A stretch of 64,000 nucleotides of DNA from Bacteroidota bacterium. GTDB taxonomy: Bacteria > Bacteroidota > Bacteroidia > Bacteroidales > F082. The stretch spans positions 1 to 64,000 of the forward strand of contig JAERTD010000024.1 of assembly GCA_016845175.1 (NCBI GenBank). The letters are read 5' to 3'. This document shows, one piece after another, positions 5,580 to 58,497 of the stretch; positions within the stretch are counted from its first letter, which is position 1, and each line of letters opens with the position of its first letter. Below the pieces are notes generated by a model. It was not told the origin of the DNA and searched no databases. It saw only the letters and a list, made by a program, of their open reading frames with translations. The position numbers and the translations under genes were made by a program.

Positions 5580-5737
5580 TTAAAGAAATAAGAAAGCAGT
5601 TAATGTATGAGACGAAAAACAAAGAAAATATGCTTAATACTGACTTTTTTATTTGCCTAGGGGTACAAAAAAAGAAAACAGTGGTACTAATAGCCAAGGG
5701 GTATTGTCAAGATAGTTTAAACGAATAAAATTATCAA

Positions 5738-6997
5738 ATGAAAAAGTTAGGAATTATTATAGGCTTATTTTTGATCACCAACTTTTTGGGATCATCCGTA
5801 TTTGCACAATACCAGATAGATGGAACTGTATTTTATGATGGTAATCCCAATATGCCCATGCAATACGTTACTGTTGGTCTTTACGATCTAAATGATAACC
5901 TGGTAGCTGAAACACAAACAGATTACAACGGTAATTTCATTTTCACCGGTGTGGTTCAAGGACAGTATAATCTTCATTCCACTACCACAATGTCGGCCGG
6001 TGGTATTGATTTGTATGATGCCTCACTCATTCTTATGTCATTATTAAATATGTATACACTGGATGCTATCCAATTTGAAGCGGCAGATGTGAACAACGAT
6101 GATACGGTCAATTTCACCGATTATTTTCTTGTGGTAATCTATTATCTCATAAACGGTCAGCCATTTCCAGCAGGAGATTGGCAATTTGAAAATGTTTTTG
6201 TGGATTTGACATCGAGAGATCCAGGACAAACAGTAAATACCTGGGGAGTTAGTGAAGGTGATGTTGATGGTGGCTTTGATCCCACTGGAAGAGAACTTGC
6301 CATGTACAGCACTCCTGAACAGCTAGCTCTACCATCACAAAACGATGGTATAACTGAAGTTTTTATTGGTTCTGACTATTTGAATACTATTTCTGGATGT
6401 AACCTTAATCTGAGCTTCCCTTCGGAGCTAATTGAAGTTGTTGGTGTGAGCGGGCCATCAGATACTGAAGTTTATCAAGTGATCGATAACGAAAACGGTT
6501 TGTTGAAGTTGGTATGGATGGATGAAGACAGAACTGACAGGCTAAGTATAAATGGAGAGCATTTATTTACCCTGCAGATTAGGACAAAAGCAACGCTATA
6601 CACAGGTCAGAAACTGAGTTTTGAGTTACTCCCTGAAGGTGGTTTGATCAATGATAATGGTATTATTGAAGATGTAACTATCCATTTACCAGTATTGTTG
6701 GCAACCGAGATTACACCCGAACACGAGATGAACGACGACCTAAGTTGTTATCCTAATCCTGTAAGCCATCAAATTAATTTTGATCTTAAGAGTACAATTG
6801 ACAATTATGCAACTATATCAATATATGATCTGCAAGGACGTTTGGTCGCTCAAAATGAGCAAGTAAACGTGTATAGCGGTAATCATACCATTTCAATGGA
6901 TGCCAGTGCTTTACAGTCCGGGCATTATTTTTACTTAATTGAATTTGAAGGAGTTAAGCACCAGAAGATTCATGGAAATTTTATTAAAGTGAATTAA
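5738..6997 (+). CDS. Secreted T9SS cargo with carboxypeptidase-like, dockerin-like and cohesin-like regions
   Basis: 419 residues. Residues 1-23 are a signal peptide ending in VFAQ. Residues 25-85 are a beta-sandwich of the SdrD-B/carboxypeptidase-regulatory type (DGTVFYDGN, TDYNGNFIFTGV). Residues about 88-138 look like a dockerin type I pair of helices; the second calcium loop DVNNDDTVNFTDY is intact while the first (DLYDASLIL) is degenerate. Residues about 190-325 resemble a cohesin-like beta-sandwich. Residues 340-419 are a type A T9SS sorting domain (CYPNPVSHQINFDL ... GHYFYLIEFEG). It should be exported by Sec, then carried across the outer membrane by T9SS. Partner and substrate are unknown; no glycosidase genes are nearby. 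A strong terminator follows. Confidence 0.85.
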   Translation: MKKLGIIIGLFLITNFLGSSVFAQYQIDGTVFYDGNPNMPMQYVTVGLYDLNDNLVAETQTDYNGNFIFTGVVQGQYNLHSTTTMSAGGIDLYDASLILMSLLNMYTLDAIQFEAADVNNDDTVNFTDYFLVVIYYLINGQPFPAGDWQFENVFVDLTSRDPGQTVNTWGVSEGDVDGGFDPTGRELAMYSTPEQLALPSQNDGITEVFIGSDYLNTISGCNLNLSFPSELIEVVGVSGPSDTEVYQVIDNENGLLKLVWMDEDRTDRLSINGEHLFTLQIRTKATLYTGQKLSFELLPEGGLINDNGIIEDVTIHLPVLLATEITPEHEMNDDLSCYPNPVSHQINFDLKSTIDNYATISIYDLQGRLVAQNEQVNVYSGNHTISMDASALQSGHYFYLIEFEGVKHQKIHGNFIKVN

Positions 6998-7022: not shown

Positions 7023-7050
7023 AAAGGAGGCTTTAAAGCCTCCTTTTTTT
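7023..7050 (+). terminator. Intrinsic terminator after the T9SS cargo gene
   Basis: AAAGGAGGC and GCCTCCTTT form a perfect hairpin around a TTTAA centre, followed by a run of seven T, 26 bases after the stop codon at 6997. Confidence 0.85.
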
Positions 7051-7150: not shown

Positions 7151-10100
7151 ATGGCAGGAAATATAACAGTTTTGTTGGGTCCTAGATTAATGGCAGTATG
7201 TATAGTTATTTGTTGTTTAATTCTAAGGATAACGGCAACTGCTTCAACCATAGGTTCAACAACAGATGATACCCCCTCTGCCATTCCATCAAACCCCGTA
7301 CTGAATAATCCCACTTATGTACTTCAATCTTCTGAAGACAGTTGGAATGAAGATACCCCAATAAACACTGCTAATAAAGCTCTTTCTCTTGCTATCACTG
7401 AAGGTGAAGTGCTCTGGGAGACTGATAAGCGTGCCGCCAAAAACAGAATTCTAAGCGTATTTCCAAGCATCTTCGAATATAAGCTCAACGATACTCTAGT
7501 GATTGATGCCTATCATCTGTTGGGAAAAACGATGATTGATTTAAAGGAGTTGCGGGAAGGAATTGATACACTTAAGCATTGCATCTATCTGAAACAAGCC
7601 TTGTATGGCAGTAATCATTCAAGTTTATACAAGACCTATAACTATATGGGCATAGGCTATTTCTATTTACATGAACACGATGAAGCCATCAACCATTACA
7701 AAAAGGCTGCCTATAGTGCAGGTACTCAAGAGGGAGGAGAAAAAGATTTTTTTCTGGCTATTCAAAATGTGGGCATTGTACATGCCAGGCTTGGGAAGTA
7801 TGACTTGGCCAGAGACTACTTTGATTCGGCAAGCTCTGTAATTAACACCCCTCCTATGCTTGCAGATACACTGATCAGTGCCTCCTTTTATTCTAATTTT
7901 GGTTTGTTATCAACCTTGATGGGAAGGATTGATGAAGGAAATGAATATTTTAATATTTCAGAAACACTGTACAGAGCTAAATTCGGACCTGATTATTATA
8001 AGATAGCCTATTTAAACAATAGTAAAGGGGTTAATGCACACTTCAACTACGACTTCTCCAAAGCCAAATTATATTTTAAGACAGCCATTGATGTCCTTGA
8101 AAGGAGCAAGGAAGATACGGTTTATCTCGCCAGGGCGTATAGTAATTTGGGTGCTACTTACATTAAGACGGATCAGTATAGGGAAGCCATAAACATGTGC
8201 AAAAAAGGCTTGGAACTGAAACCTGATTTTGACATGGCCATTTTGCTTAATCAAAATTTGGCTCAGGCATATATGCTATTGAAAGAGTACGATCAAGCCG
8301 ATTATTACTACCAGAAGGCCTTGGATTTGTCCACTCATGATAAAATGAATCCCAGTCGGGTGTTTAAAATCTATATGAGGTATGCAGATTTTCTTTTGGA
8401 AACGCAGGATTATGATAGATCCTTAACCTATTATGTGGATGCGATGGATCTTGCCCGGCAAGTTTATGGTGATCATTCTCCTGAACTGGCTACCATTTAT
8501 GGTAAACTTGGTGATTTTTATCAAAGAAACAGCTTTCAAGAAGCATTGACCTATTACGATAAATCAATCGATGTCTGGACCAGAATATTACATCTGGATA
8601 ATGATGATATTACACCAGAGAACCATAATGAGATCCGATTTATCAATGCCTTTTATGGAAAGTCAAAAACATTGCTTTCCATGTTTTACGCTAACAAGGA
8701 TGCAGACTTGTTAATGCAAGCTGATAAGTTGTGTGCAGGACTGTTGGACAGGATAGAGAGTATCAGTCATAACCTGGATATGGAAAACCGCCTTATATTG
8801 AATAAAATGGTGATGCCCATATACGGGCTGGCCATTGATGCATCATTCCAGACCATGCAAACTAAGGAAGATGCTTTTGGATTGGAAAAGGCCTTTAATT
8901 ATGCAGAGCGCAGCAAGTCTTCTGTGCTCCTATCATCAGTCAAGAATAACAATGCTTTGCGAACTTCTGATATTCCTACAGAAGTCATCGAATTGGAGCA
9001 TGACCTGCAACAAGAAATTAATGCGATTCAACAATCACTTGTTGACGAAAAAGCCAAACCAAAACCATCCTCACAGCGTCTTACATTTTATGAAAACCAT
9101 ATGTTGAAATTGATGCTTGAGCATGACAGTCTCATCCGGCAAATGGAGACAAGTTTTCCAAAGTATTACTCAATGAAATACGACCGGAATGTGGTTACAC
9201 CTGCGGAACTGATATCCCAATTAGGAAGTGAAGAACTGATGCTTGAATACACCTTAACCGATTCACTGTTATTCATCATTAGTGTGGATCATCAAGCATT
9301 GGATATCCATAGGATAAAGATTGATTCCGGATTTTTCGAATCATTGAATCATCTTGTCCGCATAAAGGATTTTAAACTTGCATCCCAAACCAGGGAAGAT
9401 TATGATCAGTTTATCGCCCATGCCCTGAATCTGGGCGAATACCTCATTCAGCCTGTGGCAAATCGAATGGTAAACAAGCGACTCGTGATTATTCCGGATG
9501 GCTTGCTCGGTTATCTTCCATTTGAAATCCTTTTAACCGCAGCACCGGATTATCAGGATATAGACTATGCCAATTTGCCTTATCTGTTTCAAAAGGTTCC
9601 CATTTCCTATTCCTATTCCGCAACTTTGCGCTACTACAATGAAAACTTAAATCAAGACAAAAAGGGAGCTGAATCTGAAGGATTGCTGGCCTTTGCGCCC
9701 AAGTATGATCTAAAAGGTAATCATATTCAAACACGTGCAAAGAAACTAAAGAACTTACCCTATGCAGAAGAAGAAGTGCTGGGGATTAAAGAAATCATGG
9801 GTGGAGAGGCTATTATCAATGAAGAAGCCACTAAACACAAATTTTTGCAGGAGGCCCAATCAGGGGATTTTCTTCATTTGGCTATGCATGCGCAGATAAA
9901 TGATACACTGCCGATGTTTTCCAACCTGGTTTTTTATCAGGAAGATGCTGATAGTTTGGATTATCATTTGAATACCTATGAAATCTTCGGTCTGGATCTC
10001 AAGGCCTCAATGGTTACCTTAAGTGCTTGTAACACAGGTTCTGGAAAGTTTCAAAAAGGAGAGGGTATCATGAGTTTTGCCAGAGGGTTTATTTATGCCG

Positions 10101-10480
10101 GAGTTCCTTCTATCATAATGACTCTTTGGGAGATTCAGGATAAAAGTGGATCAGATATCATGAAAGCCTATTACACCTTTTTAAAGAATGGATTACCAAA
10201 AGATGTTGCCTTGCAGCAAGCCAAAAATAAGGTGTTACAACAAGCGAATATGTCAAAATCTCATCCTTATTATTGGTCTGCCTATATTGTGAGTGGGGAA
10301 ACTGATCCTATTCCGGCTGATAACAAACTGTATTATGTATTGCTCATTGCCAGCTTTCTTTTGGTAATTATCCTGCTGCCATTTTCTGAGCTACAAAAAG
10401 AAAAGCGCAAATACATAAATGTATCTGCGCCTGGCTTGCTTTCTATGTTATGTTGTTTGTCTCTTTTATCTAATCTCTAA
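7151..10480 (+). CDS. TPR-CHAT protein (caspase-like protease domain), membrane anchored
   Basis: 1109 residues from ATG 7151; a TTG 36 bases upstream (7115) is in frame but less likely. The N-terminus has a hydrophobic segment (about residues 14-30) that can serve as signal peptide or anchor. Residues about 60-480 are tandem TPR units (for example YNYMGIGYFYLHEHDEAINH and YSNLGATYIKTDQYREAI). A helical linker leads to a C-terminal CHAT domain, about residues 770-1050, with the expected catalytic pair His913 (LAMHAQ) and Cys960 (LSACNTG). A transmembrane segment (YYVLLIASFLLVIILLPF) follows near residue 1060. Its last 15 bases overlap tail to tail with the anti-sigma-like gene. CHAT proteins are caspase-superfamily peptidases; this one likely works at the periplasmic side of the membrane (inference). 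Substrate unknown; the neighbouring membrane TPR protein is the obvious candidate. Confidence 0.88.
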   Translation: MAGNITVLLGPRLMAVCIVICCLILRITATASTIGSTTDDTPSAIPSNPVLNNPTYVLQSSEDSWNEDTPINTANKALSLAITEGEVLWETDKRAAKNRILSVFPSIFEYKLNDTLVIDAYHLLGKTMIDLKELREGIDTLKHCIYLKQALYGSNHSSLYKTYNYMGIGYFYLHEHDEAINHYKKAAYSAGTQEGGEKDFFLAIQNVGIVHARLGKYDLARDYFDSASSVINTPPMLADTLISASFYSNFGLLSTLMGRIDEGNEYFNISETLYRAKFGPDYYKIAYLNNSKGVNAHFNYDFSKAKLYFKTAIDVLERSKEDTVYLARAYSNLGATYIKTDQYREAINMCKKGLELKPDFDMAILLNQNLAQAYMLLKEYDQADYYYQKALDLSTHDKMNPSRVFKIYMRYADFLLETQDYDRSLTYYVDAMDLARQVYGDHSPELATIYGKLGDFYQRNSFQEALTYYDKSIDVWTRILHLDNDDITPENHNEIRFINAFYGKSKTLLSMFYANKDADLLMQADKLCAGLLDRIESISHNLDMENRLILNKMVMPIYGLAIDASFQTMQTKEDAFGLEKAFNYAERSKSSVLLSSVKNNNALRTSDIPTEVIELEHDLQQEINAIQQSLVDEKAKPKPSSQRLTFYENHMLKLMLEHDSLIRQMETSFPKYYSMKYDRNVVTPAELISQLGSEELMLEYTLTDSLLFIISVDHQALDIHRIKIDSGFFESLNHLVRIKDFKLASQTREDYDQFIAHALNLGEYLIQPVANRMVNKRLVIIPDGLLGYLPFEILLTAAPDYQDIDYANLPYLFQKVPISYSYSATLRYYNENLNQDKKGAESEGLLAFAPKYDLKGNHIQTRAKKLKNLPYAEEEVLGIKEIMGGEAIINEEATKHKFLQEAQSGDFLHLAMHAQINDTLPMFSNLVFYQEDADSLDYHLNTYEIFGLDLKASMVTLSACNTGSGKFQKGEGIMSFARGFIYAGVPSIIMTLWEIQDKSGSDIMKAYYTFLKNGLPKDVALQQAKNKVLQQANMSKSHPYYWSAYIVSGETDPIPADNKLYYVLLIASFLLVIILLPFSELQKEKRKYINVSAPGLLSMLCCLSLLSNL

Positions 10481-11203
10481 AAGAATTTCTTGGGCCCTTT
10501 TCTTATAAGTTGTTTTGCCTTTAGCTATGCTGGTGAATACTTCTTTTGCTTGCTTGGTATCATCTATCACCAGGTAACACAATCCGAGGTTCCATTCGGC
10601 TTGATCCGTGAATAGGTTGTTGTTATCTTCAATGATCTCCTTAAACGACACAATGGCTTTATCATAATCCTCCAATTTCATGTGTGAGAAACCGATGTAT
10701 AGCTTACTCATCATATTGGATTCCTTTTGTTCAAGCACTTGTATGGCCAATTCATAGTTTCCATCGGCGAAATTATCCAAACCTTCCTGAATAATATCTG
10801 GCTCTTCTGAATGCTCAGAACGAGTAGTGAGCAAGGTGTTCTCAACATCAAAGTAATTGTTGTAGAGTGCCTCATTACTCATCCCAGTATTAAAATAATT
10901 GGAGGTGAGCAAACTGCCAACCATAATAAAGAACACAATTGAAGCTGCGACAGCTTGGGTTTTCCATGAATATAAAGTGATACGTTTACTCTTCTTATTG
11001 TGGCGGTGTAGTTTTTCTAAGGTGTTGACCAAGGCCCATTTGCCTTCGTCAGAAATGGCTTGGTTGATTTCCCTGTGTAGCTGGACTTCTTTTTGTAGTT
11101 GAAGATCTGCTTCAAGACGCTTGTTAAATTCCCAAAGCTCACCTTCCTTAAGTTCACCAGCCAAGAATGCTTCCAAATCACCTGTGTTTTTATTCGTTTT
11201 CAT
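10466..11203 (-). CDS. Single-pass membrane TPR protein, anti-sigma-like
   Basis: 245 residues. The first 80 residues are soluble and charged (LEAFLAGELKEGELWEFNKR resembles the helical N-terminus of membrane anti-sigma factors). A single membrane segment spans about residues 83-102 (AVAASIVFFIMVGSLL). The rest holds TPR-like helical pairs (DNFADGNYELAIQVLEQ, GFSHMKLEDYDKAIVSFKEI, WNLGLCYLVIDDTKQAKEVF). It starts two bases after the stop of the sigma factor gene, so the two are surely co-transcribed. The topology (cytoplasmic N-terminus, periplasmic TPR) is that of an anti-sigma sensor, but no zinc-binding ZAS motif is present, so anti-sigma activity is inference. Its 3' end overlaps the convergent CHAT gene by 15 bases. 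Confidence 0.75.
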   Translation of the reverse strand: MKTNKNTGDLEAFLAGELKEGELWEFNKRLEADLQLQKEVQLHREINQAISDEGKWALVNTLEKLHRHNKKSKRITLYSWKTQAVAASIVFFIMVGSLLTSNYFNTGMSNEALYNNYFDVENTLLTTRSEHSEEPDIIQEGLDNFADGNYELAIQVLEQKESNMMSKLYIGFSHMKLEDYDKAIVSFKEIIEDNNNLFTDQAEWNLGLCYLVIDDTKQAKEVFTSIAKGKTTYKKRAQEILLEIR

Positions 11204-11204
11204 T

Positions 11205-11792
11205 CTATAAATTGATTTGGTTATTGTTCAAATCTTGTTTTATTTTCTTGATCAACATATGTTTACAAATCCGCCTTTTCTTATATGTAAACCCACTCGA
11301 TTTATAGTTTAGTTGCAAGGTGATCTCATTAACATTGAGACCTTTTGCCATGAGTTTTAATAATTTCTGGCATTCCTTGCTGATTTTATCCAAATTCCTT
11401 TTGTACAACAACATCCTTCTCTCTTTCTCTGCTACTTCGTCGAACTGGTTATTCTGAGAATTGAATCCTATGTTTTCCAGCTCTTTGTTGTCGTCGTAAA
11501 ATTCGTACTTCCGTATTCCTCTGTCTCTCAAAGTTTTTAACCAGCGGTATTTACAAACGGTATAAAAATATGTTATGAACGTGTTATTGATCTTAAAATC
11601 AGGAGTTTTGGATTGCTCATAGACAATTACAATGCCTTCCTGAAAAACATCCCAGGCATCTGATTCACTCCCAGTATTGTTTTGGACAAATTTGCTTATT
11701 GTCGAGAAATATTTGTTGTATATAAGTTCAATAATACTCCGATCATTGTTCTTAATTCCTTCAAGAATTTCTGCAGACGAGATGTTTTTCAC
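11205..11792 (-). CDS. ECF-type RNA polymerase sigma-70 family factor
   Basis: 195 residues. Region 2 is visible as AWDVFQEGIVIVYEQ followed by the aromatic-rich TYFYTVCKYRWLKTLRDR, which is the promoter -10 recognition and melting helix. Region 4 is ECQKLLKLMAKGLNVNEI with the helix-turn-helix running to KKRRICKHMLIKKI. Length is usual for Bacteroidota ECF-like factors. It is the first gene of a two-gene operon with the anti-sigma-like TPR protein and lies opposite the TPR-CHAT gene. Target promoters cannot be told from this window; a possible vegetative box TATGTTTG (11916-11909) lies about 117 bases upstream. Confidence 0.88.
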   Translation of the reverse strand: MKNISSAEILEGIKNNDRSIIELIYNKYFSTISKFVQNNTGSESDAWDVFQEGIVIVYEQSKTPDFKINNTFITYFYTVCKYRWLKTLRDRGIRKYEFYDDNKELENIGFNSQNNQFDEVAEKERRMLLYKRNLDKISKECQKLLKLMAKGLNVNEITLQLNYKSSGFTYKKRRICKHMLIKKIKQDLNNNQINL

Positions 11793-14374: not shown

Positions 14375-14959
14375 TCAGCCTTTGTTGTGGGCCTGGTGTA
14401 GGTTTAGCAGGAAGTCAGCAATCCCATCCAGACTAAATATATGGTCGGGAGCTGAGGCTTCTATGGCCGACTTAGGCATGGCAGGTGTCTCAGCCTCGGT
14501 GGGATCCTGAACAATGGTAAGGCCTCCTGCTTCTTTGACAGCTCTGATTCCAGCCGTACCATCCTGATTGGCTCCTGTTAATATTATTCCAATGACTCCC
14601 TTGCCGAATGTGTCAGCTGCAGTTTCAAACATGACATCGATGGACGGTCGTGAATAGTTGACTTTCTGCTCAGTACTCAGACTAAGCGTTGCATCCTTTT
14701 CGATGAGTAAATGGTAATTGGGTGCTGAAAAATACACACATCCGGGCTTGAGCTTTTCCTTCTCATCAGCCTCTTTTATGGTAATGGCTGAGTGATTGTT
14801 AAGGAAGGTAATGATATAGTTTTCAGAATCCGGACTGATATGTTGGACGGCAATAATTGGGATAAAAAAATCTACCGGCAAGACAGAAATGATCTGTTTA
14901 AAGGCATAGAGACCACCTGCTGAAGCTCCTATTACTACGGCTTTGTATTGCGGTTTCAT
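14375..14959 (-). CDS. cheB: CheB-type protein-glutamate methylesterase, catalytic domain only
   Basis: 194 residues, equal to the catalytic domain of CheB with no receiver domain. The catalytic triad is visible: Ser13 in GASAGG, His40 in VQHIS and Asp133 in GANQDGT. It would remove methyl groups from glutamate side chains of a sensor protein, or deamidate glutamines. It ends the four-gene minus-strand operon of two hybrid kinases, CheR and CheB, ten bases after cheR. No chemoreceptor or CheA/CheW gene is in the window, so it probably acts on a non-flagellar sensor kinase pathway (inference). Confidence 0.9.
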   Translation of the reverse strand: MKPQYKAVVIGASAGGLYAFKQIISVLPVDFFIPIIAVQHISPDSENYIITFLNNHSAITIKEADEKEKLKPGCVYFSAPNYHLLIEKDATLSLSTEQKVNYSRPSIDVMFETAADTFGKGVIGIILTGANQDGTAGIRAVKEAGGLTIVQDPTEAETPAMPKSAIEASAPDHIFSLDGIADFLLNLHQAHNKG

Positions 14960-14969
14960 TATGGTTTCT

Positions 14970-15815
14970 TTATTCGTTTACCTTCTTTTTGTAGATTTTA
15001 AGTTCCTTGTTTACATCGGTATACTGAGCGTTGTAGTTGGAAAACTGTATGGTTTCCTTGGTGCCAAGACCAAGAAAACCACCATGGACCAAACTCTCAT
15101 TAAAAAGCCGAATCACCTTGTTTTGAAGATCCCTGTTGAAGTAAATCAAAACATTTCTGCAAATGATCACATGCATTTCAGCAAAAACAGTATCGGTGAC
15201 CAAATTATGTTCAGCAAATACAATATTTTTTTTCAGTGCCTGATCGATTATTGCAGAGTTGTATTTAGCAAGATAATAGTCGGTAAATGAGTATTTTCCG
15301 CCTGCCTTTTGATAGTTCACGGTGTATTCTTTAATCCTGTCTACCGGGTAAATTCCCTTCCTTGCCACTTCAAGAATGTTGTTATTAAAATCGGTAGCAT
15401 AGATCTGAGTACGATCATAAATGCCCTCTTCCTTCAATAAAATAGCAAATGAATATACCTCCTCACCACTGGCACAGCCTGCATGCCACACTTTGATAAA
15501 AGGATAGGTTTTCAGTATGGGGATTACCTCTTTCCTTAAGGCCACATAAAAGGCAGGATCTCTGAACATTTCAGTGACATTGATCGATAAATCCTTTAGT
15601 AATGAATTGAAAAAGTTTTTGTCGTGAAGCACATGGTGTTGCATCTCCGACAAGCTCCTAAACTTGTTTTGCTTCATTTTGTTGATCAGGCGACGCTTGA
15701 TATGAGCAGGGCTATAGGATCTGAAATCATAGCCATAACGCCTGAAAATACCCTCCAGAAGAAATTCTATTTCAATACTTGTGGTGAGATCGTTATGTGA
15801 TGTATTTTCGGGCAT
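14970..15815 (-). CDS. cheR: CheR-type protein-glutamate O-methyltransferase
   Basis: 281 residues, usual length. The N-terminal helical CheR domain (FRRYGYDFRSYSPAHIKRR) is followed by the SAM-binding domain with KVWHAGCASGEEVYS, IYATDFNNNILEVARKGIY and IICRNVLIYF, all classic for the family. It methylates glutamates on a receptor or sensor using S-adenosylmethionine. It sits between the 1462-residue hybrid kinase and cheB in the same operon. In Bacteroidota such CheR/CheB pairs commonly accompany large hybrid kinases rather than flagellar genes, in keeping with this context. Confidence 0.92.
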   Translation of the reverse strand: MPENTSHNDLTTSIEIEFLLEGIFRRYGYDFRSYSPAHIKRRLINKMKQNKFRSLSEMQHHVLHDKNFFNSLLKDLSINVTEMFRDPAFYVALRKEVIPILKTYPFIKVWHAGCASGEEVYSFAILLKEEGIYDRTQIYATDFNNNILEVARKGIYPVDRIKEYTVNYQKAGGKYSFTDYYLAKYNSAIIDQALKKNIVFAEHNLVTDTVFAEMHVIICRNVLIYFNRDLQNKVIRLFNESLVHGGFLGLGTKETIQFSNYNAQYTDVNKELKIYKKKVNE

Positions 15816-15869
15816 TTACCTGATTATAAAACAATTAGAATGATAAGACCTGAATATGAAAATGGAATC

Positions 15870-18800
15870 CTATTGGTATAACCAAACGCGCAGCAAGGAA
15901 ATTAATTTGTCTTTATCAACGGGCTTGGATAGGTATTCAGATGCTCCGGCAGCCAGACATTTTTCCCTGTCTTCTTTCATGGCTTTGGCAGTAAGAGCTA
16001 TAATGGGCAGGTCTTTATAAGCTTTGTCTTTTCTGATGAGTTTCATAGCTTCATAACCATCCATTTCCGGCATCATGATATCCATCAGAACCAAATCAAT
16101 TTCAGGAGTTTCTTTCAATTTGTCAACGCCTTCCCTGCCATTCTTGCCAACCACGACGTTGGCATCCATACTTTCCAACAGGCTGGAGAGGGCAAACACA
16201 TTTCTCATATCATCATCTACGACAAGGATGGTTTTTCCGGCGATAATATTGTCGTCTCCATGTATGGTTTCAAGCATTTTTTTCTTCTCCTCAGGTAGTT
16301 TGGATTCTACCTGATGCAGGAATAACGTAGTCTCAGCCAGTAATCGTTCAAAGGAGCGAGCACCTTTTAGAATAATACTCTGTGAGTACTTTCTCAATTT
16401 ATCATTTTCTTCTTTGGTAAGTTCTTTACCGGTGTAAATGATCACAGGAAGTTCTTCGGCTAGCTGCTTTTCTTCCATGATATCAAGCACTTGGAAGCCC
16501 GTCATATCATCCAGACCAAGATCCAGTATCATGCAATCAAAGTTGTTATTAGTGATGGCTTCGATGGCCTGAGCGCCTGTTTCAATGGCAGTTATTTCAA
16601 TGTTTTCTGCTTGCATGAGGTTTACAATGCTTTTCCTCATAATAGCCTCATCTTCAACTATAAGTAATTTTTTGACAGGCTTGGAAATTATATTCTCAAT
16701 TTTCGAAAAGACTTCACTTAATTGGTCAGCATCAACAGGTTTTGTTATATAGCCTATGGCTCCCATTTTGAGAGCATCCATGCTTCTGTCAGAGGCAGAA
16801 ATGAAGTGTACAGGTATGTGACGGGTTTTCTGGTTTAGCTTCAATTTGTCCATCACCTGATAACCATCTATGCCAGGCAATCCAATATCAAGAATGATGG
16901 CAGCAGGTTCATAATAGTCTGCCATATACAAGCCACTTTCTCCTGTTAGGGCTATAATAGCCTTAAAATCATGCTCATGGGCGAGGTTCAATATCACGCT
17001 GGCGAAGTTGTAGTCATCTTCAATAATTAACAGGATATTATCCTTACTGGTGATGGTATTTCTGTCATCCTGAATTTTGGTGTCGCTTAAATCAATTTCG
17101 TATTCCGGATCTTGTGATTCTTCCTGGATGCCATCTGTATCATCCTCTTCCACACGTTCAGAAACAAACTCTGTTCTATGTGTTTCAAATTCTTTGGATT
17201 GGATCTCTGCCTTTTCAAATCCTGTGGGTAGGAAGAGCGTAAAGGTTGAACCCTTACCATCGCTACTTTCCAGCTGCATTTCACCACCAAGTGCTTCAGA
17301 GAAATTTCGTGAAATACTTAAGCCCAATCCTGTGCCTCCATATTTTCTGCTGGTGGTGCCGTCGGCTTGTTTGAAAGCCTCAAAGATGAGTTTTTGCTTT
17401 TCTTTGGGTATTCCGATACCGGTATCAATAATGGAGAAAGCGATGGTGGTTTCGAGTTTTAGCTTTGGATTGCCAAATTTGGTTGCTGGATCCGGTGCAT
17501 GAATATTCAAACTGATTCCACCAGTTTCCGTAAATTTTATGGCATTGGAGATCAGGTTTTTAATGATCTGCTGCACACGTTGTACATCGGTGGTAATATA
17601 TTCAGGCAATCCATCTGCGATGGAGATGTCCAAAGATAAACCTTTGTTTTCCAATACCACTTCGAAACTATCCTGTACAAATAAACTCAAATCGTCGAAA
17701 AACAATTGTTCGATGGACAATTCCATTTGACCTGATTCTACCTTTGAAAGGTCGAGTATATCATTGATCAGATCAAGTAAGTCATTTCCGGAGGAATTGA
17801 TGGTTGAGGCATATTGGATTTCTTTCTCGTCAAGATGTTCCTTTTTATTCTCAGAGAGCAGCTGAGAAAGCACATTGATAGAGTTTAAGGGGGTCCTTAG
17901 CTCATGGCTCATATTGGCCAGAAATTCAGATTTATACTGACTGGCTAGTTCAAGGTCCTTTGCTTTTTCTTCTATTTCTTTTCTGGCAGCTTCCAGCTCC
18001 TTATTCTGCTTCTCAATGGCATTTTTCTGTTCTTCAAGCATTTGTGAACGCTCGGCCAGTTCCTCATTGGTTACTTTAAGCTCTTCTTGTTGGGTTTGCA
18101 GGTTTAACTCGGATACTTTCAGGGCTTTGGTTTGTTCTTGTAGTTCCTCGTTGGTTTGTCGTAATTCTTCCTGCTGAACCTCCAGTTCATTGGCCTGCTC
18201 CTGAGTTCGTTCCAACAATTCTCTAACGCGAATATGAGATTTCAATGTTACAATGGCAAGGGCGACATCATGAGCTGTGGTTTCAATGAACCTCATTTGT
18301 AGGTCACTGGGCTCACCAAGCAGACCCAATTCAAGAACACCCACGGTCTCCTCCTCATGAGAAAGTGGCATGATGATAAAATGGGTAGCCGTTGTTTCAC
18401 CAGCTCCAAAATTCAATATGGGTAAATCGTGTTCATCCGGTTTGTTGATGATGAGACTCTTATTATCCTTGTAAACCTGGCCTACTAAGCCTTCACCTTC
18501 CTTAAATTTCAGAGATTTTTTTAGATCCTTCTTCTTAATGGCATAGGTGGCCCTTAGCTCCAATTGCTCTTCAGTATGTAGATAAAACAATCCCAATTGG
18601 GCATTCAGGTAGGTCACGAAGAAAGATAAGATGTTATCGCATAATTTATTGAGTTCGGAATGCCCCCTCATCGTACTGTCCAACTGATTGAAACCGGTTT
18701 TCATCCAGTCTTGTTCTGTGGTTTCCATGGCATTCAGCCTTAGCTTTTCAGTCATACTGTATAAGGCTTTCCCGAGAGAGTCATTGTCGCTCCGGGGTTG

Positions 18801-20258
18801 AATGAGGGTAGTATAATCACCATCCGCGATTTTATTGGCCTGCTCCACAACCGATTTGAAACTTTCAACCATTTGGTTGATGGACTTACCCAGGATATCC
18901 TGGTCACTTCTAATGGTAATAGTTTCACTATAATCCCCCTTAGCCATGGTTTTAGCTACTGAGGCATAGTATTGAAGAGAATCCACCAGGGAGTTGAAAG
19001 TATCACGCATTACTCCTATTTCGTTGGAAGGTGCTTTGATACTTTTTTGCTGTAATTCTCCGATGGCTACCTGTTTTCCCCAGGAAGATAGGTTTTTGAT
19101 GGGGTTGACAAACCATCTGGTCACCAGTATGGCGATCAGCAAAACAACAAGAATGGTGAGTACAAAAGAGATTTTTGCGATATCGGAAAGCCTTCTGGCA
19201 TAGGCAAAGGCTTCTGAATGTTCTATTTCTTCAATGAGAGCCCAATGTACGTTCAGGGGTTCCAATTTGTCAATATGTCGGTAAATGCCATGCACATATT
19301 TACCTTCTCCGTCGGTATCATAATTGGATACAGTTTCCTCGTCCAACTCGTATTTTTTCAGATACTTCAGATCCCCTTTATGATTTAAGTAATCCTTCCA
19401 GGCACGTGATTTCTCGTTATTAACCTTTTTGGTGAGTATGTCAGATTTTTCTCCGAAACGGGTAATGGATCTCAGGTAGAGGTCCTCACCAATCAGGTAG
19501 GCCTGTCCGGTTTCTCCATAACCAGCGTTTTGCTGAATTAATTGGTTGATGCCACTATCAGTTATTTGCAGGGCAACCACCCCAATTTGTTGTCCATCTT
19601 CAGAAACAGGCATGACAAAGAAGCCTGAAATCCGATCGTAACTGGGTCTGAATACTTCAAGATCGGAAAATAGTAGCTTGTCAAGTTCCAGTGATTCGCG
19701 AGAGGTTTTACTGAAGAATGTATTGGTTAACAGGCTATCGTACAGGTTCATGCCCAGTATGTCCTCTTTTTTGGAGGAAAAAAGCACATTGCCTTTGGTA
19801 TCTAAATAGAGAAAATTATAAAAATCTTTTTCCAGCACATATTGCTGTAATTCGGGACGTAGTTTTCCAGCTATGTCTTCCCACTTGCTGCTTTTGGTGA
19901 ACTCAGCTGCGGATTGACCTGATTTTTCATAGCCTTCGCTCAGACTTTTGAATACATTCATTCTGGAAGGTGAGGTGGCAGTGATATTGAGCATGTCGAT
20001 GGCATTCTCAAAATAGGTATTGATAAAGTTGAGTCTAAGTTGAGATGATGAATTAAGCGATTTATCAGCGACTATGGTCAAACCCTGATAGGCTGTCAGG
20101 TAGTTGATGAAGCTAATGGCTGCCAACGGTACAAAAGAAATGGCCAGGAACCATATCAAAAGGGATTTGCCAACGCCAATATACCGCCATGAACGCAAAG
20201 AATGCTTGAATCTTTCCCAGGTTGAGGCCTCTTGGTAGTCAATAAATTTATCATCCAT
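15870..20258 (-). CDS. Large hybrid sensor histidine kinase: Cache, HAMP, GAF, HisKA/HATPase, three receivers
   Basis: 1462 residues. TM1 is near residues 32-51, followed by a periplasmic sensor of about 310 residues (dCache-like) and TM2 near 362-383. One HAMP and two HAMP-like repeats (NQMVESFKSVVEQANKIADG) run to about 510. A GAF domain spans about 535-675, then a long coiled coil rich in Glu/Gln (690-775). HisKA has the phospho-His in MSHELRTPLNS near 784; the ATPase has NLISNAIKF, DTGIGIP and GTGLGLS. Three receivers follow with phospho-Asp in LDIGLPG (about 1122), LDLGLDD (about 1245) and MDIMMPE (about 1392). No HPt domain. Second gene of the operon with the 669-residue kinase upstream and cheR/cheB downstream. 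Confidence 0.92.
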   Translation of the reverse strand: MDDKFIDYQEASTWERFKHSLRSWRYIGVGKSLLIWFLAISFVPLAAISFINYLTAYQGLTIVADKSLNSSSQLRLNFINTYFENAIDMLNITATSPSRMNVFKSLSEGYEKSGQSAAEFTKSSKWEDIAGKLRPELQQYVLEKDFYNFLYLDTKGNVLFSSKKEDILGMNLYDSLLTNTFFSKTSRESLELDKLLFSDLEVFRPSYDRISGFFVMPVSEDGQQIGVVALQITDSGINQLIQQNAGYGETGQAYLIGEDLYLRSITRFGEKSDILTKKVNNEKSRAWKDYLNHKGDLKYLKKYELDEETVSNYDTDGEGKYVHGIYRHIDKLEPLNVHWALIEEIEHSEAFAYARRLSDIAKISFVLTILVVLLIAILVTRWFVNPIKNLSSWGKQVAIGELQQKSIKAPSNEIGVMRDTFNSLVDSLQYYASVAKTMAKGDYSETITIRSDQDILGKSINQMVESFKSVVEQANKIADGDYTTLIQPRSDNDSLGKALYSMTEKLRLNAMETTEQDWMKTGFNQLDSTMRGHSELNKLCDNILSFFVTYLNAQLGLFYLHTEEQLELRATYAIKKKDLKKSLKFKEGEGLVGQVYKDNKSLIINKPDEHDLPILNFGAGETTATHFIIMPLSHEEETVGVLELGLLGEPSDLQMRFIETTAHDVALAIVTLKSHIRVRELLERTQEQANELEVQQEELRQTNEELQEQTKALKVSELNLQTQQEELKVTNEELAERSQMLEEQKNAIEKQNKELEAARKEIEEKAKDLELASQYKSEFLANMSHELRTPLNSINVLSQLLSENKKEHLDEKEIQYASTINSSGNDLLDLINDILDLSKVESGQMELSIEQLFFDDLSLFVQDSFEVVLENKGLSLDISIADGLPEYITTDVQRVQQIIKNLISNAIKFTETGGISLNIHAPDPATKFGNPKLKLETTIAFSIIDTGIGIPKEKQKLIFEAFKQADGTTSRKYGGTGLGLSISRNFSEALGGEMQLESSDGKGSTFTLFLPTGFEKAEIQSKEFETHRTEFVSERVEEDDTDGIQEESQDPEYEIDLSDTKIQDDRNTITSKDNILLIIEDDYNFASVILNLAHEHDFKAIIALTGESGLYMADYYEPAAIILDIGLPGIDGYQVMDKLKLNQKTRHIPVHFISASDRSMDALKMGAIGYITKPVDADQLSEVFSKIENIISKPVKKLLIVEDEAIMRKSIVNLMQAENIEITAIETGAQAIEAITNNNFDCMILDLGLDDMTGFQVLDIMEEKQLAEELPVIIYTGKELTKEENDKLRKYSQSIILKGARSFERLLAETTLFLHQVESKLPEEKKKMLETIHGDDNIIAGKTILVVDDDMRNVFALSSLLESMDANVVVGKNGREGVDKLKETPEIDLVLMDIMMPEMDGYEAMKLIRKDKAYKDLPIIALTAKAMKEDREKCLAAGASEYLSKPVDKDKLISLLRVWLYQ

Positions 20259-58351: not shown

Positions 58352-58490
58352 TGTACGATTTCTTCTTCCATCCAGACTTTACTGTCGGTTCCGGAATTTC
58401 ACCAGATCAGTCCCTCATCGATTTGCATCGGTCTCAGGAGTCGCGGACTATTACCGCCGGTCGGGAGTTTCACCCTGCCCTGAAGAAATT
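58352..58490 (-). promoter_or_regulatory. FMN riboswitch (RFN element)
   Basis: Read on the minus strand, the conserved blocks appear in order: CTTCAGGGCAGGGTGAAA, CCCGACCGGCGGTAATAGTC, CGCGA, a variable arm, CTGATCTGGTGAAATTCC, GGAACCGACAGTAAAGTCTG and GATGGAAGAAGAAAT. The 5' AAATTTCTTC pairs with 3' GAAGAAGAAAT to close stem P1. These match the RFN aptamer, which binds FMN and shuts off riboflavin genes. A further CAATGG/CCATTG hairpin lies between aptamer and terminator. It controls ribD-ribE-ribBA-ribH. Confidence 0.96.
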
Positions 58491-58497
58491 TACTCTG

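Follow-up and report, generated by a model that had tools for sequence, protein, structure and literature searches.

The locus described here lies in a stretch of 64,000 nucleotides (the window), positions 1 to 64,000 of contig JAERTD010000024.1 from a Bacteroidota bacterium (Bacteroidales, F082; assembly GCA_016845175.1). It encodes a TPR-CHAT protein and, convergently, a two-gene operon for an extracytoplasmic function (ECF) sigma factor and a TPR membrane protein, which we consider here as a candidate proteolytic switch. A previous sequence-only reading of this DNA had described these three genes, the convergent ones overlapping by 15 nt, and open reading frame (ORF) calls agree with it and give all three genes intact (overlap at 10466-10480; Table 1). 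The genome of 3.9 Mb contains one CHAT gene, one full-length homologue of the TPR protein and one such sigma factor, all at this locus. The module is larger than first described: it reaches left to position 5662, so as to include a secreted-protein gene and its promoter element. Pfam, NCBIfam and PADLOC labelled the TPR membrane protein as TPR only, and no defence-system assignment beyond TPR was returned.

Table 1. Features of the module in the window, in order of position within each gene or group
Feature	Position	Strand	Basis or remark
Secreted-protein gene, type IX sorting tail with prealbumin-like and dockerin/cohesin-like parts	5738..6997	+	fourth module gene
Predicted sigma-dependent promoter, GGTACAA-N14-GGTACTAA	5662..5690	+	47 nt 5' of secreted-protein gene; 0 mismatches to GGTAYAA-N14-GGTACTAA
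Terminator-like hairpin between secreted-protein and CHAT genes	7023..7046	+	consensus scan alone
TPR-CHAT gene	7151..10480 (ORF 7115/7151-10480)	+	1109 aa; ORF call and domain profiles
His913 codon, catalytic dyad	9887..9889	+	conserved alignment column
Cys960 codon, catalytic dyad	10028..10030	+	conserved alignment column
Asp997 codon, presumed P1-binding (S1) residue	10139..10141	+	Glu in subclade whose partner linkers carry Met
C-terminal transmembrane segment of TPR-CHAT protein	10328..10384	+	hydropathy; kept in nearly all full-length module homologues
TPR membrane protein gene, predicted single-pass anti-sigma factor with periplasmic TPR domain	10466..11203	-	245 aa
Predicted cytoplasmic anti-sigma domain, residues 1-78	10970..11203	-	PDB profile matches RslA, DdvA, RsrA; zf-HC2 in two module homologues
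Transmembrane helix, residues 82-100	10904..10960	-	hydropathy and AlphaFold2 model
Arg128 codon, disordered periplasmic linker, candidate CHAT cleavage site (P1)	10820..10822	-	
Predicted periplasmic TPR domain, residues 135-245	10469..10801	-	profiles, model, Foldseek
ECF sigma factor gene	11205..11792	-	195 aa, GTG start
Predicted autoregulatory promoter, GGTATAA-N14-GGTACTAA	11804..11832	-	11 nt 5' of sigma start; exact in 10/10 subfamily loci

Residues 760-1050 of the TPR-CHAT protein matched the CHAT family PF12770 (E=4e-53, 181 bits against a curated cut-off of 24), and several TPR models matched as well. The His913/Cys960 pair, already described as intact, was retained by every homologue with a readable column, and the alignment confirmed the dyad. 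By profile and dyad the protein belongs to the CHAT protease family, with a predicted proteolytic activity. Hydropathy also bore out the C-terminal membrane anchor, which is conserved in module homologues. Basic residues follow this segment in nearly all full-length CHAT homologues that accompany the module, several of which have a lipobox-like cysteine. Since the N-terminus is hydrophobic and resembles a signal peptide by hydropathy, and since basic residues stand behind the C-terminal segment, the protein is probably exported, with its body in the periplasm and its C-terminal tail inside.

The TPR membrane protein has one transmembrane helix preceded by about 80 presumably cytoplasmic residues, in agreement with the single-pass protein with a short cytoplasmic N-terminus that had been proposed. 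Its AlphaFold2 model (mean predicted local distance difference test, pLDDT, of 83) has three TPR-like helix pairs beyond the membrane helix and a linker, whose block 121-130 has a mean pLDDT of only 56. A profile of the N-terminal part, searched against 177,635 PDB sequences, gave 14 matches, among them RslA, DdvA and RsrA. The motif HxxxCxxC is present in the cytoplasmic part of five homologues, and two module homologues (L179 and L218) passed the zf-HC2 cut-off; the window's own protein has no zinc motif. Foldseek with the model of the protein returned TPR matches only. In keeping with the sequence-only reading, we regard the TPR membrane protein with high confidence as an anti-sigma factor, and the operon order suggests that it would bind and inhibit the sigma factor encoded upstream.

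The identity of the sigma factor was also upheld. The 195-residue protein matched Sigma70_r2 (E=3.7e-6), its profile covers SigW, SigH and E. coli sigma-E over both regions, and it consists of regions 2 and 4 only, like the ECF structures that it matches; TIGR02937 gave 42.8 bits for a cut-off of 42.9. A bipartite element with a fixed 14-nt spacing was found 10-11 nt 5' of the sigma gene in all ten subfamily loci; at L095 and its duplicate L147, the start called for the sigma gene overlaps the element. The same element lies 44-47 nt 5' of the secreted-protein gene in the window and in L092, L095 and L145, and none of 509 control upstream regions came within fewer than 3 mismatches of it. In other subclades, the sigma and secreted-protein genes have a different common element of their own: L106 20/20 (control maximum 15), L108 20/20 (18), L104 19/20 (16), L110 18/20 (15) and L114 17/20 (14). 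No convincing common element was found for these two genes in L105, L107, L109, L111, L125, L149 and L156. Because one element precedes both genes and is absent from controls, we think it likely, with good confidence, that the sigma factor drives both the operon in which it is encoded and the gene of the secreted protein. We claim only these two window sites as its targets, because a relaxed search of the own genome, allowing 3 mismatches, gave matches no more numerous than a reversed control pattern.

Two further observations were made on this element in other genomes. With 1 mismatch, it stands before stretches of some 120 nt without a sizeable ORF, each closed by a hairpin that is usually accompanied by a T-run (L276:4538 (-), L278:815 (-), L284:415 (-), L285:1581 (+) and L275:1433 (+)). 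These five stretches, from genomes G009, G012 and G022, could be sigma-driven small RNAs; four of them fold better than every shuffle. In genome G020, three exact or near-exact elements (L281:1295, L282:302 and L283:1364 (+)) lie about 200-290 nt 5' of a gene for a small secreted protein, which is followed by one for a large secreted protein, and these sets are likely paralogous sigma targets.

The secreted protein has a Por_Secre_tail (E=9.9e-13), and its homologues share its domains. In about 20 loci, such homologues (E<1e-70) are encoded directly 5' of the CHAT gene on the same strand. The gene of the type IX-secreted protein is thus the fourth conserved gene of the module, and an addition of the present analysis. 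At L096:5728-6102 (+), in genome G012, the gene after the sigma element 5' of CHAT encodes tandem HPEGEVEAVWVPSGRLASADY-like units in place of the usual secreted protein.

The sequence-only reading had made its proposal depend on co-conservation of the three genes, and we found this co-conservation in three samples. Among 61 relatives, searches with CHAT, the TPR protein and the sigma factor pointed largely to the same places. Genomes of the window's own family had both CHAT (scored as a thresholded subfamily) and the TPR protein in 20/37 cases and neither in 15/37, so that 35/37 were concordant and 2/37 discordant; the thresholds were set after the data had been seen, and PF12770 counts are compatible with these numbers. 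An independent collection consisted of 80 CHAT loci picked by CHAT similarity alone, many of them on short contigs. Sigma factor and TPR protein were both encoded within 8 kb in 42 of the 80; Bacteroidales, Cytophagales, Saprospiraceae, Flavobacteriaceae and Chlorobiota are among the groups represented. Finally, in a separate set of 197 genomes of the class, CHAT was present in 68, and in 27 of the 29 genomes with a full-length TPR protein against 41 of the 168 others (p ~1e-12, uncorrected for phylogeny). The TPR protein gene lies at most 1.5 kb from CHAT, mostly convergently, for 24/44 and 35/82 CHAT genes, and the commonest layout among adjacent pairs (33/59) is convergent with the sigma gene beside the TPR gene. 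Distance matrices of the module proteins correlate as well (Mantel r of 0.63-0.71, where permutations reached no more than 0.20). Genome G031 has two modules, and since one of them (L125) groups with L105 for all three proteins and the other (L108) with another group, modules are inherited as units. We are highly confident that the CHAT protein is functionally tied to the TPR membrane protein.

What is this module related to? When a CHAT-only profile was compared with PDB sequences, the single match at E<1 was DdvA of Myxococcus xanthus (8rot residues 834-977, E=0.0033), with the His, Cys and Asp residues aligned. The anti-sigma domain in turn matched the N-terminus of DdvA (8rlz, E=0.017; 8rot residues 7-47), and Foldseek with the TPR-CHAT model ranked separase, DdvA and the Craspase TPR-CHAT protein at the top; the full TPR-CHAT profile had only TPR proteins among its 60 best PDB matches. 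Because each window protein matches one end of a single anti-sigma chain, this fusion suggests that the two work together. By sequence comparison, the best single relative is DdvA, a membrane anti-sigma factor for the ECF sigma factor DdvS with a TPR-CHAT part (PDB 8rot, 8rw5, 8rlz), and the locus would be a split DdvA-like system. DdvA is one chain of 991 residues, whereas the window has the anti-sigma domain and the TPR-CHAT part on two proteins with two membrane anchors, accompanied by the type IX-secreted protein. DdvS controls an antiphage island (PMC12288465), and no such target was seen at the window module.

The likeness to the type III-E Craspase (Csx29, Csx30 and CASP-sigma) had been the starting point of the sequence-only reading. 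It stands for the fold (Foldseek E 6e-14, target TM up to 0.52) and, by analogy, for the logic, since the neighbour and presumed substrate of the protease would again be a sigma inhibitor; Csx30 is cut by Csx29 (PMC10028731). It does not extend to sequence, since Csx29 gave no chain at E<1 among PDB sequences with the CHAT-only profile, nor to compartment, as Craspase is cytoplasmic and the window CHAT domain, with its predicted export and membrane anchors, is probably periplasmic. The locus has no Cas7-11/RAMP effector. The CRISPR-free setting that had been proposed holds as far as type III systems in the own genome are concerned (no PF03787 match to a RAMP protein, genome 91.7% complete).

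Other systems share parts of this arrangement. DegS-RseA-RpoE has a membrane anti-sigma factor with a periplasmic site-1 cut, which we propose here too, and an M50 site-2 protease is encoded in the own genome; the site-1 protease proposed for the window is a caspase-superfamily CHAT protein, whereas the DegS type is a HtrA serine protease. CHAT or caspase genes lie near ECF sigma genes in ECF54 loci (PMC8999054) and in EACC2-caspase systems, the latter with a TPR protein (PMC8195603), but ECF54 is described as having no anti-sigma factor and EACC2 systems have other partners. Separase, the top fold match (9hn0, E 3.8e-15), is eukaryotic, has no membrane anchors and gave no sequence match at E<1. 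Parts and logic of the module thus have precedents in DdvA, Craspase and ECF54, and it is no new category. A literature search, with most subscription journals outside it, found no description of this module or of a two-chain periplasmic form.

We then considered where the CHAT protein might cut. Conservation of the linker was computed on 70 non-redundant TPR proteins, and column 128, readable in 67, is Arg in 57 of them (3.3 bits). The remaining disordered columns 119-135 have 0.5 to 1.8 bits, except S129 at 2.4, and nearly all of columns 105-112 lie below 1.8. Clan CD proteases with Arg at P1 use an acidic S1 residue, and separase is an Arg-specific clan CD protease. By analogy with separase, we take Asp997 of CHAT, nearly invariant across homologues, to be this S1 residue. 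In fresh loci, partners with a Met linker had Glu997 in 8/8 cases and those with an Arg linker Asp997 in 10/11; the combined table gives 10/10 and 61/62, respectively. Both genomes of the class sample that have the TPR protein and lack CHAT, G125 and G216 (L316 and L334), have no Arg or Met before Ser or Gly in the linker. The linker pattern is in line with a protease site and is not proof of one; Arg128, isolated in a disordered periplasmic stretch, is in our opinion a tentative candidate. The cut that had been placed in the TPR part would accordingly move to the linker between membrane and TPR domain.

Several observations weigh against such an interpretation. The Met/Glu pairing amounts in essence to a single evolutionary event: residue 997 changes 2 times on the CHAT tree, once for the one subclade with this pairing and once for L360. 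The Fisher test ignores phylogeny, so its value overstates the pairing, which we counted as one event. Locus L360 (G135:C13) is a clear exception, with Glu997 in CHAT and an Arg kept in the partner linker (NLRDTE), and L194, which automatic typing scored as Arg, has on alignment reading an M-G linker with Asp997. In a held-out set, the aligned column 128 was Arg in 14/49 and Met in 9/49, and most of the other linkers, read by eye, have one of these residues displaced by a few columns. By this reading about 28/49 linkers have Arg and 15/49 Met ahead of a small residue, a dipeptide that chance alone would give fairly readily in a linker. The linker Arg is also kept in an own-family genome that lacks CHAT (G026, L126). 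The PDB matches of the anti-sigma domain are individually weak (E 0.016-0.9), and a terminator-like hairpin divides the secreted-protein gene from the CHAT gene.

From the gene association, the anti-sigma domain relationship, the fold and the common promoter element, all observed in silico, we infer the following mechanism. With its cytoplasmic N-terminal domain, the TPR membrane protein would keep the sigma factor bound at the inner membrane, and the exported TPR-CHAT protein, with its C-terminus in the same membrane, would meet the TPR part in the periplasm. When signalled, perhaps by how type IX secretion stands or by the secreted protein encoded alongside, CHAT would act as a caspase-like site-1 protease and cut the disordered linker after Arg128. 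The remaining steps, by the site-2 protease and cytoplasmic proteolysis, would free the sigma factor to transcribe the operon that encodes it, the unit of secreted-protein and CHAT genes and a small number of further targets. That the ECF sigma factor is switched by proteolysis in the periplasm, with CHAT cutting the linker, is in our judgement moderately probable; that the signal comes from type IX secretion is a doubtful guess. For the complete proposal, namely a two-chain, CRISPR-free caspase-like switch in the periplasm, widespread in Bacteroidota, with CHAT as the site-1 protease reading a linker Arg (Met in one lineage) and a type IX-secreted protein in the circuit, we see about even chances.

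The strongest competitor, although we hold it to be unlikely, is a coupling of CHAT without cutting, in which the TPR-CHAT protein would be a docking sensor, one half of a DdvA-like receptor divided in two, and would alter the anti-sigma protein by binding in response to a ligand. TPR domains on both proteins would suit such docking, and DdvA carries the same parts on one chain, with a signal and mode of inactivation reported as unknown (PMC4374960). A mere sensor would, however, have no need of the His/Cys pair and of the Asp presumed at S1, which are kept throughout the family, nor does it account for the isolated conserved Arg in the disordered linker. The protease may instead act on another substrate, for example the co-encoded type IX-secreted protein, and merely be a member of the sigma regulon; the position of that protein's gene directly 5' of CHAT, behind the shared sigma promoter element, would fit. 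We consider this improbable, as the tie between CHAT and the anti-sigma protein holds at the level of genomes even where the genes are apart (e.g. G013, G015, G020, G028 and G033) and the DdvA fusion connects CHAT directly with anti-sigma function. That these genes are ordinary neighbours, brought together by chance or by a tendency common to ECF loci, seems to us hardly credible. CHAT without a nearby sigma pair is indeed common (32/80 loci), and 41 of the 68 CHAT genomes in the class sample have no full-length TPR protein, but adjacency is repeated across several orders with congruent distances and common promoter elements. The proteolytic switch is the reading that we prefer.

Elsewhere in the window, we noted an FMN riboswitch at 58356-58491 (-) (Rfam RF00050, 119 bits), the sole Rfam match in the window at the gathering threshold. 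At 14375-20258 (-), a row of genes encodes, as read from the translations, a CheB-like protein, a CheR-like protein and a hybrid histidine kinase of 1462 residues with several receiver domains.

CHAT proteins are common in Bacteroidota and, to our knowledge, almost none of them has a known substrate. This locus offers a proposed substrate, a single candidate residue and a reporter promoter. Should the switch prove true, control of a sigma factor by a TPR-CHAT protein would be a more general arrangement, with Craspase and DdvA as two of its forms, and the site-1 proteases known from envelope signalling would come to include a caspase-like enzyme.

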